A stretch of 64,000 bases of DNA from positions 763,177 through 827,176 of the forward strand of contig JAHBTX010000004.1 of assembly GCA_019638395.1 (NCBI GenBank), written 5' to 3'. The notes under the pieces were generated by a model that made no database searches, had not been told where the DNA came from, and saw only the letters and a list, made by a program, of their open reading frames with translations. Of the stretch, positions 20,153 through 28,677 are shown in pieces. This DNA is from Cyclobacteriaceae bacterium. Lineage in GTDB: Bacteria > Bacteroidota > Bacteroidia > Cytophagales > Cyclobacteriaceae. The translations under genes were made by a program, and so were the position numbers. Position 1 is the stretch's first letter, and each line of letters starts with the position of its first letter.

Positions 20153-20959
20153 ATGTATTCCTTTCTCAATAATGAATTTCTACCTGCCGAGAAAACGCTC
20201 GTGCACGTTAGCGATCTGGCCGTGCAACGTGGGTATGGTATCTTCGATTTCTTTAAAACCATAAATGGGAAAATCCCATTTTTTGATAACTACCTTGATC
20301 GGTTTTATCGTTCGGCAGAATTTATGCACTTGCCGGTAACGCTTTCGCGTGACGAATTGAAAAAAGTAGTGTTTGAATTATTGAAAAAAAATGGTGCTAC
20401 CGATGCCGGAATCAAAATGGTGCTCACCGGTGGCTACTCGCCCGATGGTTACGAAATAGCAACGCCCAACCTGATTATTACACAACATGCGTTAACCATG
20501 CCTTCACCTAAGGTACTGGAACAGGGCGTTAAGATTATTACCCACGAGTTCAGGCGCGAAATGCCAATGGTTAAATCAATTAACTATACTACCGGTGTGT
20601 GGCTGCAACAAAAGGTAAAAGCAGCCAACGCCTATGATGTGTTGTATCATTTGAATGGTGAGGTAAGTGAGTTTCCGCGCTGTAACCTGTTTGTAGTAAA
20701 GGCAGATGGTGCAATGGTTACACCCCAGGCACATGTATTGGAAGGGATTACCCGAAAAAATATTTTATCCATGCAGCGGGTTATCGCATGCAAAGTAACG
20801 TTGGAAGATGTGCTGCTGGCCCGCGAAGTATTTTTAACCAGTACTACCAAACGCGCGGTACCCATTGTGCAGGTAAATGATATGCGCATTGGTACCGGCA
20901 AACCCGGGCCGGTTGTGCAGCAGGTGTTGGAGGAGTTGTTGAATAGGGAAGTGCTATAA
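20153..20959 (+). CDS. Class IV aminotransferase (BCAT/D-amino-acid type)
   Basis: A 268-residue PLP enzyme of fold type IV. The N-terminal VHVSDLAVQRGYGIFDFFKT carries the conserved RG(Y/F)G(I/V)F(E/D) motif. MVKSINYTTGVW (about 140-151) holds the expected PLP lysine, and EVSEFPRCNLFVV the conserved Glu and Asn. The family covers branched-chain aminotransferase, D-amino-acid aminotransferase and 4-amino-4-deoxychorismate lyase, and substrate cannot be decided from sequence alone. A truncated group II intron end begins two bases after its stop codon. Confidence 0.85.
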   Translation: MYSFLNNEFLPAEKTLVHVSDLAVQRGYGIFDFFKTINGKIPFFDNYLDRFYRSAEFMHLPVTLSRDELKKVVFELLKKNGATDAGIKMVLTGGYSPDGYEIATPNLIITQHALTMPSPKVLEQGVKIITHEFRREMPMVKSINYTTGVWLQQKVKAANAYDVLYHLNGEVSEFPRCNLFVVKADGAMVTPQAHVLEGITRKNILSMQRVIACKVTLEDVLLAREVFLTSTTKRAVPIVQVNDMRIGTGKPGPVVQQVLEELLNREVL

Positions 20960-20961
20960 GC

Positions 20962-21010
20962 ACGGTTCTGTGAGAGGTTTAGGGGTGAAACTCCCCTTTA
21001 CCTACTCGAT
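20962..21010 (+). mobile_element. 5'-truncated group II intron fragment (last 49 nt)
   Basis: This stretch is identical over 48 nt to 28083-28130, the end of domain V and all of domain VI of the full intron in this window; the next base also matches. It starts inside the 3' strand of domain V, so everything upstream is missing. It sits between the aminotransferase stop and the stop of the antitoxin-like gene. Perfect identity suggests recent origin. A 5'-truncated copy is what incomplete target-primed reverse transcription would leave. Confidence 0.8.
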
Positions 21011-21172
21011 CTATCGTCCCACTGTTTTTAGGTTGGAATTTTTTAATCTGTCCGCAATGTACTTTTTCAATTGTTCTAAAGTCATGTTTTGGGTCTCTTC
21101 ACTAATCTTGTCGCGAATGTCCCGCATCATTTTAACTGCGTCAAATGTCTTTGTTTTCTCTTTAGTCGCCAT
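21011..21172 (-). CDS. Small antitoxin-like protein next to PIN gene
   Basis: A 53-residue frame starting MATKEKTKTFDAVKMMRDIR and containing ISEETQNMTLEQLKKYI. It is short, charged and helical, and resembles small partners encoded beside PIN-domain toxins (the TFDAVKMMRDIRDKI pattern). It starts 11 nt inside the 3' end of the PIN gene, so the two were translationally coupled with the toxin first. Its stop codon directly abuts the intron fragment. The antitoxin role is inferred from context and general pattern. Confidence 0.6.
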   Translation of the reverse strand: MATKEKTKTFDAVKMMRDIRDKISEETQNMTLEQLKKYIADRLKNSNLKTVGR

Positions 21173-24347: not shown

Positions 24348-24566
24348 TCAATTTTTGGCCGTCTGCTTATTTCTCAAAAAATATTTTTTCGTTTTCTTAC
24401 AATAGACTACGTCATGTCCCAGCATTCGCAAACTACTTATCATTCTACGTGCCGTCCTTTCAGAGATATTATACTTTTCAACAAGGTAATTTGGAGATTG
24501 GAGAAATCCTTTTTCAATCAAGGAAAGAATGTATTCAAGCCTTTCGGAGTAAGTTAGAAAATCCAT
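24348..24566 (-). CDS. Small helix-turn-helix protein
   Basis: A 72-residue protein consisting of a single winged-helix-like HTH: MDFLTYSERLEYILSLIEKG, then YLVEKYNISERTARRMISSLR, where the recognition helix is expected, and a basic C-terminal tail. It resembles the N-terminal HTH of DeoR/WYL-type regulators but has no effector domain. It is the first gene of the three-gene accessory block, so it is a candidate local regulator. No operator was identified. Confidence 0.6.
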   Translation of the reverse strand: MDFLTYSERLEYILSLIEKGFLQSPNYLVEKYNISERTARRMISSLRMLGHDVVYCKKTKKYFLRNKQTAKN

Positions 24567-24686
24567 AAATAAATTTTTACAACATGAAATTCGGTTAACG
24601 CTTTATTATCCTATGGATGGTGCCTGGCATAACCGCCAACCTTTAGATTTACTTCAACATAATTTATCGTAGTAATCGTAACTTTT

Positions 24687-24870
24687 GTGGGTAAGTGGGT
24701 AACCGCTTCGGTTATCCAGCTTATCCACAAAAAAAGCAGCCGGAGCACTATGCCGCCAACCAGGTTGAGGGCTTATCAAACGATTCAGTCCGGCTGCTAA
24801 TTTAAGTTGTGAGAGGGGATCAAATAGATATTCAAGGCTGCGGGCCTATTATAAAGGTTTCGATCCAATG
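24687..24870 (+). ncRNA. Candidate IS110 bridge RNA
   Basis: Three hairpins occur in the order known for IS621-type bridge RNAs. A long 5' stem-loop is at 24687-24728 (arms of about 20 nt). A hairpin with 10-bp arms AGCAGCCGGA / TCCGGCTGCT and a 44-nt loop is at 24735-24798. A hairpin with GGATC / GATCC arms and a 40-nt loop is at 24817-24866. In loop one, CCGCCAACC (24753-24761) equals the left flank 24633-24641, and CAAACGAT (24777-24784) is complementary to the right flank 25959-25966. In loop two, ATAGATAT (24824-24831) equals the element's right end 25953-25960, and TAAAGGTT (24852-24859) is complementary to its left end 24638-24645. These fit target and donor guides. Confidence 0.65.
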
Positions 24871-24903
24871 CTCATTTTAGTTTAATTACCTAAACCAAAA
24901 GCT

Positions 24904-25936
24904 ATGGAAAACCATCACCAAAATCAACCGTACCATTGGATACTCGGTATTGATGTATCCAAAGAAAGTATTGATGCCTGTCTAATCCGTCAACAAGATG
25001 GGCAGCTTGCTGGAGAACAAGTTCTTCACAACAACGTATCGGGATTCAAACAATTCCTCAAAGCCTGGTGTAAACAAATGGAATGTGAATGCGACCATCA
25101 CACTCTTTGTTGTATGGAACACACTGGCTTGTATACACGCCTCGCTGGTACACTACCTGCTCAGCCGTGATGTGCACGTTTATTGGAAAGCTCTGCAGAT
25201 CAAACGCAGCCAGGACTGGTAAGAGGAAAGTCTGATAAAATTGATGCCCAGCGTATCGCCCGATATGCATCGTTTAGAACAGATAAAGCCCAGATCATGC
25301 AAATAAAGTGTATTAACGCTGGAAAAACTGAAAGATCTTCAGGCTAACGTGAAGACGCCTGCTCAAATCATTACAAACCATTCGAACAAGCTCCGAAGAG
25401 TTAAAAACAATTTGGATACCTCAACAAAGCAAAATTAATGGACAAGATAAAACCGGAAGCTATTCGCGGGTTGGAAAGAGTTTGGATAAAGTAGATGAAC
25501 AAATCCTCACTTTCATCGGTGAAGACGAAACTTTAAAACAGAAGTATGATCTGATGTTGTCAATAAAGGGCGTAGGCAAGGTACTGGCTGCAATGTTGTT
25601 GGTTTACACACATGGTTTCAACCGCCTGGCTGATAGCCGAAAACCTTGTTGTTACAGTGGCGTAGCACCCTTTACCTACGAAAGCGTACATCCATACGAG
25701 GTAAGACAGGTGTATCTCAATTTGCAAATGGAGAACTTAAACGAGTCTTGCACATGGCTGCTGTAAGCAGTGTACAACACAACCCCGAATTACACGACTA
25801 TTACAAACGCAAGGTGGAAGAAGGCAAGAATAAAATGTCTGTTATTAATGCCGTAAGAAACAAGTTACTACACCGGATTGTCGCTGTTATAAAACGCGGA
25901 ACACCTTATGAATTGAACCTGAAAAATAATTTATGA
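24904..25936 (+). pseudogene. IS110-family transposase with several frameshifts
   Basis: Pieces of one IS110 transposase lie in different frames. The N-terminus (WILGIDVSKESIDACLI, then CCMEHTGLYT) runs to a stop near 25170. After a poorly preserved middle comes LTFIGEDETLKQKYDLMLSIKGVGKVLAAMLLVYTHGF, then after another shift FANGELKRVLHMAAVSSVQH and VINAVRNKLLHRIVAVIKRG to the stop. The catalytic DEDD and Ser-bearing halves are both recognisable, but no continuous frame exists. It belongs to a different subgroup from the element at 21588-22534. Confidence 0.85.
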
Positions 25937-25960
25937 AACGTTAGTTTTAATCATAGATAT

Positions 25961-26089
25961 CGTTTGGCTATAAAACGTGGCGGCTTTTGAAACCTAATTT
26001 CTCCACCGACACAAAGTTAAGTTAGAAGTTTTATCTTAATTGGCAGTCAGTCACCCGCCATGTTTTTATAGCTTTTGTTGTAGGGCGTT
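25961..26089. repeat. Inverted-repeat element interrupted by the group II intron
   Basis: GCTATAAAACGTGGCGG (25967-25983) pairs with CCGCCATGTTTTTATAGC (26055-26072), with one bulged base, around a spacer of about 70 nt. The outer flank begins CGTTTGGC. The right end (TTTTGTTG then GGGCGTT) resembles the right end of the palindrome at 22805-22935. The intron begins directly after it, and the second IS110 element ends directly before it. Confidence 0.55.
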
Positions 26090-26779
26090 GTGTGCCCTGA
26101 ATGTCTACCAAGGGTACAATATAATGACTTGTTCATTGAATGGTAGGCAATGTTGTAACAAAGATGAGAGACTTTCATCAGGAAGTTGTCTTAGTATGGA
26201 AACGAGCCGGCCACTCTATATATAATGTCGGAGGTCTCACGAAATTCTCGGTCAATGAAATGTTGAAAGAGTGTGCTCTCGACAAGGAGAGAACAGGCTT
26301 ACTTGTCAAACCACCACAAGGTGCTTTGCTTTCAAGGCGTAGGTACTGAGCGTTGTGGAAACGGATTTACTTTCAGTTGTAGGAAAGACAAATTCAGGTG
26401 AGGTCTAAGGAGATGAATGAGAAGAGAGTGAACCATCGTAGAGGTGTCGTAACTAACCTTGTTGTTGCTCAAAACCCGAGGGATCAGCGCCCCGAAGAGA
26501 TAAGTCATAAGCGATACCTGTATTGCGGCTTATGATGAGCGACCGGCACAAAGATGGCATGACCTTAGACTGGGCTTTGTTATGAAACAGGGGAACCTTG
26601 CTGTTGGTGCGAAAGGAAAAGTTATAAGTCCCGTAGGGATAAGACGAATACCGAAACAACAGACAAGGGGCAGATTAGTCCGTAGTAGTGAAGATGCTCT
26701 TGGAAACTTGAGTGGAGCGAAGGGGCTAACATGGTTAGTTTTTTTTTCAAGTCAACGTTAAGTCGAACGATTTACACGA

Positions 26780-28042
26780 ATGAATTTAGAAGAGAAACAA
26801 AAGTCATTTCCCATCACCAAAGAACAGGTGTGGGAATCGTTTAAGCTGGTAAAAGCGAAAGGAGGCGCAGCAGGTGTTGATGGTATAACCGTTAACGGCA
26901 TTGCTGTGAATCCCCGGAAACATCTTTACCCGGTGTGGAACCGTTTAGCCAGTGGAAGTTACATTCCGCCAGCCGTGAGGCGCGTGGAAATACCAAAGAG
27001 AGATGGAGGTATAAGATTGTTGGGAATCCCCACAGTCGCAGACCGCGTTGCACAAATGGTTATAGCTAAAGAGTTGGAGGAAATAGTGGATAGACGCTTT
27101 TCACCAAGTTCATTTGGGTATCGGCCAAACAAAAGTGCGCATGAAGCCATCGAGCAAGCCCGCGAAAATTGCTGGCGTTATCCGTGGGTGATAGATGTTG
27201 ACATCAAAGGATTCTTTGACAACATAGACCATCGGTTATTGATTCGTGCCGTTCGCAAATTCACAGACAAGAAGCATATCATCTTGTATGTAAAGCGGTG
27301 GTTGAAAGCTCCCATACAGTTGAAGGATGGTACCCAAATTCAGAATCTGGAAAAGGGTACACCTCAAGGAGGAGTAATCAGTCCATTGCTGGCGAACATC
27401 TTTCTTCACTTCGTATTTGACAAATGGATGGAAGAGAACTTCTCCAACAATCCGTTTGAACGTTATGCGGATGATATTATCATCCATGCGAAGAACGAAC
27501 CTGAAGCACGGCACTTATTAAAGTCATTGAGGGCACGGTTTGAGCGTTGCAAACTTGAACTACACCCAGAGAAGACCAAGTTAGTGTACTGTAACCGAAA
27601 AGGGAGACGCAAACGAAAAGAAGCGAGAGAAAGACAATTTGATTTTCTTGGATACACGTTTCGTTCACGCAGTGTAAAGACAAAAGATGGGGCACTCATC
27701 TTTGGATTTAGTCCGTCCATCAGCCGCAAGTCCACGCAACGCATAGTGGAAGAAGGCAGAAGATTACGTCTTCACCGCTGGACGCACCTGGACATTGTTG
27801 GTTTGTCAAACATGTTGCGTAGCAAGATTCTGGGTTGGCTCCACTACTATGGTAAATTTCATAAGTCAGCGATGAAGGTTGCCTTTCGCAACCTGAACCG
27901 CAGATTAGTGAAATGGACTTTCAACAAGTACAAACGATTTAAGCGAAGTAAAGCATTGAGGCCAGCGCGTTTATGGTTACGGCAAGTCGCCAAAGATTTT
28001 CCGTATCTGTTTCCGATGTGGCAGCATGGATTTACTCCGTAG
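26780..28042 (+). CDS. ltrA: Group II intron reverse transcriptase/maturase
   Basis: A 420-residue intron-encoded protein. RT motifs run from KGGAAGVDGITV through IPKRDGGIRLLGIPTVADRVAQ, FGYRPNKSAHEAI, DVDIKGFFDNIDH and GTPQGGVISPLLANI to the catalytic FERYADDIIIHA, then FDFLGYTF. The C-terminal maturase (X) domain includes HYYGKFHKSAM and the group II maturase-specific region to WQHGFTP. No HNH endonuclease domain is present, so insertion likely uses a nicked or single-stranded target. The sequence looks closest to endonuclease-less class D/E-type proteins. The frame is intact, so the intron may be active. Confidence 0.92.
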   Translation: MNLEEKQKSFPITKEQVWESFKLVKAKGGAAGVDGITVNGIAVNPRKHLYPVWNRLASGSYIPPAVRRVEIPKRDGGIRLLGIPTVADRVAQMVIAKELEEIVDRRFSPSSFGYRPNKSAHEAIEQARENCWRYPWVIDVDIKGFFDNIDHRLLIRAVRKFTDKKHIILYVKRWLKAPIQLKDGTQIQNLEKGTPQGGVISPLLANIFLHFVFDKWMEENFSNNPFERYADDIIIHAKNEPEARHLLKSLRARFERCKLELHPEKTKLVYCNRKGRRKRKEARERQFDFLGYTFRSRSVKTKDGALIFGFSPSISRKSTQRIVEEGRRLRLHRWTHLDIVGLSNMLRSKILGWLHYYGKFHKSAMKVAFRNLNRRLVKWTFNKYKRFKRSKALRPARLWLRQVAKDFPYLFPMWQHGFTP

Positions 28043-28055
28043 GCTTAACCATGAA

Positions 28056-28089
28056 GAGCCGTATGACGGGAGACTGTCAAGTACGGTTC
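28056..28089 (+). ncRNA. Group II intron domain V
   Basis: The 34-nt catalytic hairpin with arms GAGCCGTAT and GTACGGTTC begins 13 nt after the reverse transcriptase stop. It holds the catalytic triad positions near its base. Its 3' strand is where the truncated copy at 20962 begins. Confidence 0.85.
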
Positions 28090-28155
28090 TGTGAGAGGTT
28101 TAGGGGTGAAACTCCCCTTTACCTACTCGATTCTATCAACCGATTCATATTTGAA

Positions 28156-28628: not shown

Positions 28629-28677
28629 GGCGGCAACGTTTGGCTTTAAGCCACTCTATCGCTTATAGCCACCTTGC
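28629..28677. repeat. Hairpin repeat related to the other accessory-region elements
   Basis: TGGCTTTAAGC and GCTTATAGCCA pair over 11 bp with one mismatch around a 9-nt loop, with an outer GCAA/TTGC pairing. The CGTTTGGCT(T/A)TAA sequence is shared with the left arm of the element at 25961. It lies 14 nt upstream of the small lipoprotein gene. Confidence 0.5.

Follow-up and report, generated by a model that had tools for sequence, protein, structure and literature searches.

An IS110-group element of Bacteroidota with a predicted upstream bridge RNA whose target half appears set for integron attC sites

Bridge RNAs are established in the IS110 group of insertion sequences (Durrant 2024, PMC11208160; Hiraizumi 2024, PMC11208158). 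The window analysed here, a stretch of 64,000 nucleotides from a Cyclobacteriaceae bacterium, contains an IS110-group element, and a sequence-only reading had proposed that a bridge RNA with four guide segments can be read upstream of its broken transposase gene. This raises the question of whether these segments are indeed the guides of an RNA and, if so, at which kind of site they are aimed. Our results indicate, with a probability of roughly nine in ten, that this is an IS110-group element with an upstream bridge RNA whose target half would be set for the attC sites of integrons.

The ends of the element were set from copies located at different sites and from empty sites, and they delimit the following features:

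24641-25961, + strand: IS110-group element, left end CTTTAG, right end CATAGATATC
24904-25936, + strand: transposase gene, frameshifted in the window copy, with intact copies elsewhere in the genome

The C at 25961 corresponds to the C at 24640, and one of the two belongs to the target. The same genome carries two more copies of 97% identity (C2:6578-7904 and C21:483134-484460), both with an intact open frame of 341 aa, as well as two left-end fragments of the element at contig ends. The protein of the C2 copy matches PF01548 (DEDD_Tnp_IS110, 78.3 bits) and PF02371 (Transposase_20, 74.5 bits), in both cases above the cut-offs, and the element's transposase scores 179.8 bits with the NF033542 profile (cut-off 140). 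The nearest element outside this genome (L118, 99%) was found in a Cyclobacteriaceae MAG.

As had been read from the letters, the transposase of the window copy is broken; its gene carries frameshifts. Its 29 substitutions and 12 indel events relative to the C2 copy are all located within 24902-25685, and therefore none of them affects the bridge-RNA hairpins; in the bridge-RNA region the window and C2 copies are identical, and the C21 copy is one stem base off, outside the guides. It seems that the window copy combines an intact RNA and intact ends with a broken enzyme, and it could move in trans alone, if at all. As an alternative to real decay, an assembly fault could explain why the indels lie together in the middle part of a transposase gene that is repeated in the genome. 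Remains of a different broken IS110-family transposase, with NF033542 matches in two ORFs, are present at 22612-21506 (- strand).

The 258-nt non-coding region of the element has a minimum free energy of -79.1 kcal/mol, versus -57.4 +/- 4.7 for shuffled sequences (z -4.7), in agreement with the proposed 5' stem-loop and two hairpins upstream of the transposase gene. The predicted parts of the RNA are:

24683-24731, + strand: 5' stem-loop of the bridge RNA, from the fold; by eye not evident in the relative L121
24735-24798, + strand: target-binding hairpin, stem 24735-24744 with 24789-24798
24809-24875, + strand: donor-binding hairpin, stems 24809-24813/24871-24875 and 24817-24821/24862-24866
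24753-24761, + strand: left target guide (LTG), CCGCCAAC(C), match to the left flank
24777-24784, + strand: right target guide (RTG), CAAACGAT, reverse complement of 25959-25966
24824-24831, + strand: left donor guide (LDG), ATAGATAT, identical to the right end at 25953-25960
24852-24859, + strand: right donor guide (RDG), TAAAGGTT, reverse complement of 24638-24645

The word CCGCCAACC is present twice, in the left flank (24633-24641) and in the first loop (24753-24761). All four matches listed by the sequence-only reading are exact and stand in the order of the IS621 guides. Chance matches in a decayed element, an idea to which the broken transposase of the window copy lends something, were rejected, and we give them practically no probability: with the junctions fixed, two or more of the four words occurred in none of 20,000 shuffles of the 258-nt region, and with the junctions left free, all four guides in order occurred in 0/4,000. 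Furthermore, two intact copies carry identical guides, and the guides co-vary over 31 elements (see below).

The junctions themselves, marked here with a slash, read AAC/CTTTAG on the left and ATAGATATC/GTTTG on the right, and the empty site reads CCAACGTTTG (e.g. C2:11638-11648). Five left flanks are visible in the own genome of the element, CCGCCAAC in four cases and CCCCCAAC in one, and the three visible right flanks all begin with CGTTTG. Target and donor have a single C in common, without flank duplication beyond it, and a CT core dinucleotide of the IS621 type is absent.

Of the two right guides, the RTG (reverse complement AT-CG-TTTG) fits the product junction on the right, and the RDG (AA-CC-TTTA) fits the one on the left. 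In IS621, as described in PMC11208158, handshake guides occupy the corresponding right-guide positions and pair with the incoming strand. The AT of the RTG is placed where IS621 has the handshake positions reading the donor, and the TT of the RDG matches the target AA, as a handshake guide would. Since the right guides read product junctions and one C is common, the junctions do not need a shared core dinucleotide. The sequence-only reading had noticed that the two junctions lack one identical dinucleotide, which left the crossover unsettled; the former is confirmed, and the latter can be explained by product-junction guides together with the common C, with a predicted rather than observed exact cut.

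The site split by the element has the organization of an integron attC site:

24633-24640, + strand: left target, attC R' box (CCGCCAAC)
25961-25966, + strand: right target, spacer side of the attC R' box (CGTTTG)
25965-26084, - strand: rest of the split attC site, with L' at 25965-25984, L'' at 26054-26074 and R'' at 26077-26084

The element splits the R' box at AAAC/GTT, no more than one base away from the point at which integrons recombine. When the window flanks are joined, they fold into an attC hairpin. On the right, the window, C2 and C21 copies are flanked by members of a repeat family of which empty representatives also occur on small contigs, and these repeats follow the attC plan, R''-L''-L'-R' with an unpaired spacer, as judged by the box consensus given in PMC7923331. 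In twelve uninterrupted attC sites the consensus fold comprises 20 pairs, and in 15 of these both partners have changed. Both boxes were found in six sites on contig C2, and each of these sites starts 11-20 bases 3' of the end of a + strand ORF. All three insertions of the element with two visible flanks in its own genome are in attC-type sites, and so is L118, the 99% copy from another genome.

The neighbourhood of this attC site contains further features:

26090-28126, + strand: group II intron (RF01999 and RF00029 matches; predicted ends), with a maturase ORF at 26780-28042
20958-21015, + strand: 58-base copy (97%) of the intron 3' end, probably a remnant
28614-28156, - strand: ORF of 152 aa without family, flanking the attC site in cassette orientation
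24566-24348, - strand: ORF of 72 aa with an HTH_11 domain, likewise flanking the site in cassette orientation
28634-28642: second R'-like motif, CAACGTTTGG

The intron starts approximately 6 nt past the R'' box of the attC site whose R' box is split by the IS110 element, and thus one attC site carries two mobile elements. At its predicted 5' end, the intron does not show the TTGT/T insertion word, and a search for a full attC partner of the R'-like motif at 28634 did not find one.

Whether the loops act as guides can be judged from relatives of the element, which were taken from a genome scan starting from a protein alignment (best 80 of 158 loci, with organism names). The co-variation test comprised 31 elements (30 for the left flank) out of 113, the window's included. 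It excluded duplicates from one and the same locus (L089, L091, L092), copies that hardly differ from the window element (L118, L088, L003), elements that were truncated or remained unparsed (L134, L135, L141, L142, L148, L156, L094, L152, L107) and the more distant elements, which had no anchors defined, and it included L054 (39%). Some positions are fixed or favoured by the parsing patterns, namely LTG positions 6-8, RTG position 9, the handshake letters, the LDG/right-end pattern and the AA of the left flank; RTG positions 10-13 and LTG positions 1-5 are free. The parses of L054 and L129 (RTG) and of L125 (left flank) were set by rule or by hand with the flanks in view.

At RTG positions 10-13, 103/124 letters agree with the right flank over the 31 elements, compared with 42.2 for mispaired guides and flanks (P 2e-5) and 59.0 expected when permuting within clades (P 2e-5). 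When each distinct guide is represented by one row, 63/76 agree versus 25.4. Examples of such pairs of guide and flank are CCAGCGAT/ATCGCTGG (L121), GGGGCGAT/ATCGCCCC (L090) and CGGGCGAT/ATCGCCCG (L093), and 5/31 rows are weak, matching at most two of the four positions. The LDG agrees with the element's own right end in 245/248 letters versus 225.3 when mispaired, and its variants ATAGATAT, ATAGATTT, ATGGATAT and ATAGAAAT change together with the right end.

On the left, 86/150 letters at LTG positions 1-5 agree with the flank in 30 elements, versus 69.6 (P 6e-4), or 74.8 expected with permutation within clades (P 0.0098); beyond AAC, the LTG predicts the left flank weakly. The co-variation of loop segments with flanks, proposed as a check by the sequence-only reading, is thus clear for the RTG and weak for the LTG. 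Loops that stay constant at differing sites, which would have spoken against the guide roles, were found on the left only, where the same LTG stands at flanks that differ upstream of AAC (L118 and six copies in genome G107), and the RTG follows the right flank.

The hairpins are kept in the relatives as well. In an alignment of 22 sequences, 88% of the cells in the helices are paired and 16/24 pairs show compensatory changes on both sides; rows that are partly out of register, such as L137, count against the alignment in these figures. None of 500 shuffles reaches any of five stem measures, all of which drop strongly when the partners are shifted against each other. The guide roles, which had been borrowed from IS621, are supported by these changes and by the co-variation of RTG with right flank and of LDG with right end, and a bridge RNA upstream of the transposase gene, with putative target and donor loops, is supported by the comparison of sequences.

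The same results bear on the idea that the matches between guides and flanks are DNA-level leftovers, i.e. short target duplications or insertion homology, with no RNA guide involved. Both flanks do resemble words inside the loops, as such leftovers would. These words, however, sit in two hairpins kept by compensatory changes, the matches on the right-hand side are in reverse complement, in keeping with what strand-specific pairing by an RNA demands, and the donor guides follow the element's own ends. We rejected a DNA-level duplication, as none extends beyond the one common C, and regard leftovers in general as very improbable.

Among the parsed elements, the AA read by the RDG agrees with the target AA in 30/30 and RTG position 7 agrees with the donor T in 30/31, in both cases with most letters fixed by the parsing anchors. 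RTG position 6, which the anchors constrain less, agrees in 21/31; all five guide T face a donor T, and ten A face T. The handshake letters vary too little among these elements for an independent test. In L125 and L146, a T occupies the shared position of the left junction and is matched by a T in the left guide, and the right junction retains C, a pattern that favours an exchange just 3' of the shared base. Two registers of the core are conceivable, namely CN, where both handshakes would be those of IS621, and NC, where the cut would follow the C; L125 and L146 would favour the exchange on the 3' side.

L054, a 39% paralogue in the same genome (G000 contig C26, 3442-4431), has a left guide, GGCTTAAC, identical to its left flank and an LDG, ATAGAAAT, identical to its own right end. 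By eye, it lies inside the variable part of an attC-like repeat, not at R'.

A second cassette array is provided by G107, which contains six copies of a 53% relative (the L090 sub-line) with another right guide than that of the window element. The right flank is CGCCCCTGTAAGGC in all six copies, one of which is visible only that far, and three of the copies lie within a 20 kb stretch holding 14 copies of a long repeat. The flank motif occurs 27 times in four 20-kb stretches (L201-L204), 5 times occupied and 22 times empty, and before the crossover the empty sites end with ...AA, which is preceded by variable letters. At a distance of some 230 bases from there, many of the sites have an arm TTACA...(A/G)T, then GTT and letters complementary to the beginning of the next cassette (e.g. 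GTTGTATGCT and next AGCATACAA). The attC-like sites measure approximately 240 bases, one side of them being almost the same throughout, and they are separated by ORFs; judging from this arrangement, the repeats represent the attC plan in a longer form. The left flanks are TGCACAAC, ATGCTAAC, CGGCTAAC, CCGCCAAC, TGCACAAC and CCGCCAAC under one left guide, which indicates that the left side is read loosely.

Lineage-wide, right flanks were examined by a structural attC test (an arm and an anchored GTT box, site limit 190 bases) with a threshold passed by 5% of 870 control windows, which are nearby windows and may themselves hold attC sites. It was passed by 18/33 lineage flanks (15/30 with the window element counted once; P 1e-12 versus these controls) and by 2/29 more distant elements; L138 was too short for it. 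The remaining 15/33 are below the threshold, including L139, L143, L145, L136 and others; in the case of L090 of G107, this is due to a site length above the limit of the test. A free duplex search gave a strong arm followed by GTT in 18/33 flanks, versus 27/404 controls and 3/34 other elements, with some short arms misplaced, L054 counted within the 33, and the lineage members L152 and L156 among the others. These flank sequences show apparent attC targeting for much of the lineage, not for all of it.

In a tree of 54 proteins, which left out rows with stops, rows shorter than 300 aa and chosen near-duplicates, the 25 rows of the AAC/CG type are on one side of a branch with support 100/99; as the label attC_type rests on junction type and kinship, a single origin is partly built into this result. 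The hosts of the AAC/CG lineage are Bacteroidota (Cyclobacteriaceae, Hymenobacteraceae, Rhodocytophagaceae, Reichenbachiellaceae and others) and one Chlorobiota MAG. The more distant elements have other junction types.

These data also allow us to weigh a simpler explanation, according to which a general bridge-RNA element of the IS110 group is found in attC here merely because such sites are abundant, with no specialised lineage. The permissive left guide, the 15/33 relatives below the attC threshold and the right guides that differ between sub-lines would fit it. On the other hand, all three two-flank insertions in this genome and all six in G107 are at the recombination point of a cassette site, and the AAC/CG type forms one clade over several families, with other junctions in the distant elements. 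We therefore consider abundance alone an unlikely explanation, and that of a lineage committed to attC the better one.

An integron would have its integrase near the array. A tyrosine recombinase of 371 aa (L069; C21:3132-4247, - strand) heads an integron-like array with attC sites at 1615-1746 and 2218-2349. It scores 182.6 bits with TIGR02249 (cut-off 265) and 208.7 with NF040815 (cut-off 220), and its profile match skips positions 178-243. None of the 24 genomes searched, mostly lineage hosts, gave a single TIGR02249 match above the cut-off, with pieces of a match scored apart. As the matches in these genomes come in two separately scored pieces, this negative result is soft evidence; Bacteroidota integrons may use a divergent integrase. 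The paper on IntegronFinder 2.0 (PMC9024848) reports a complete integron in one Bacteroidetes genome, that of Salinibacter ruber. Two IS copies (G116:C1:2159844 and G042:C37:112613) lie within about 2-6 kb of such recombinases (G116:C1:2153693-2154511, and C37:115616-116422 on what is apparently the same contig as that of G042, under the handle G211).

IS621 inserts into REP sequences. The present element resembles it in the placement of its predicted bridge RNA, which lies 5' within the left end, in the two hairpins with loops and the order LTG-RTG-LDG-RDG, in right guides that match the product junctions at what would be the handshake positions, and in the DEDD and Tnp domains of IS110 and a short right end. 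It differs from IS621, as far as the latter is described in the two papers cited at the outset, in that a single common C takes the place of the CT core, with target and donor differing at the bases on both sides. Moreover, the right guide reads approximately 4-5 target bases, and the target is attC.

An IS1111-attC group (ISKpn4, ISPst6, ISPa21) was reportedly recognised by Tetu and Holmes in 2008 and by Post and Hall in 2009. Targeting of attC by the IS1111 group is described in PMC11187229, PMC11616780 and PMC11089894; the abstract of PMC11616780 places IS110 in attC sites, and its body names ISPa21 of the IS1111 group. As in the IS1111-attC elements of PMC11187229, one end of attC sites is targeted via an RNA encoded by the element. 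In those elements, according to the same account, the RNA lies downstream of the transposase gene and is accompanied by subterminal inverted repeats, whereas here it lies upstream, and a search for inverted repeats of 12 nt or more in 24500-26100 gave four, none of which joins both ends. Membership in IS1111 was rejected on these two grounds. Like the group IIC-attC introns, which use the R'' side (PMC7923331), the element is a mobile element homing on attC, but the introns are described there as retroelements that recognise the folded bottom strand, and ours would be a DNA recombinase. Our survey of literature on IS110/IS1111, bridge RNA and attC met no upstream-RNA IS110-group element at attC; such an element may stand unnamed in supplementary tables.

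Based on our observations, we suggest the following course of insertion. A bridge RNA encoded upstream of the transposase gene would be transcribed and would form a complex with the recombinase. The left guide of the target loop would pair with the bottom strand and read the R' box (...YAAC), and the right guide would pair with the top strand and read the adjacent spacer. The donor loop would pair with the joined ends of an excised circle, which is presumably formed beforehand. The recombinase would then exchange strands beside the single C common to target and circle, leaving no longer target duplication. Reading of the R' box and spacer would lead to insertion at the integron recombination point, which splits the attC site. 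The chemistry, the exact cut and a loss of cassette mobility are likewise predicted steps of this scheme.

As a bridge RNA, the one described here is ordinary; what is new is that its target half is set for attC, that the shared core has one base and that the lineage is a separate one. We find it probable that a single IS110-group lineage of Bacteroidota and Chlorobiota is committed to the attC core, reached it apart from the IS1111-attC elements and uses a one-base shared core instead of CT. Its separate origin is suggested by the RNA being on the opposite side of the transposase gene.

The element offers a complete readable RNA guide aimed at the crossover point of another recombination system. 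An attC site that mutated its R' box in order to escape would hardly retain integrase function. In the engineering of bridge RNAs, a natural one-base shared core combined with a longer right guide would be a useful test of the strictness of the core rule. Together with the IS1111-attC elements, it suggests that RNA-guided recombinases have reached integrons more than once, and insertions of this kind may explain frozen cassettes in the integrons of Bacteroidota.
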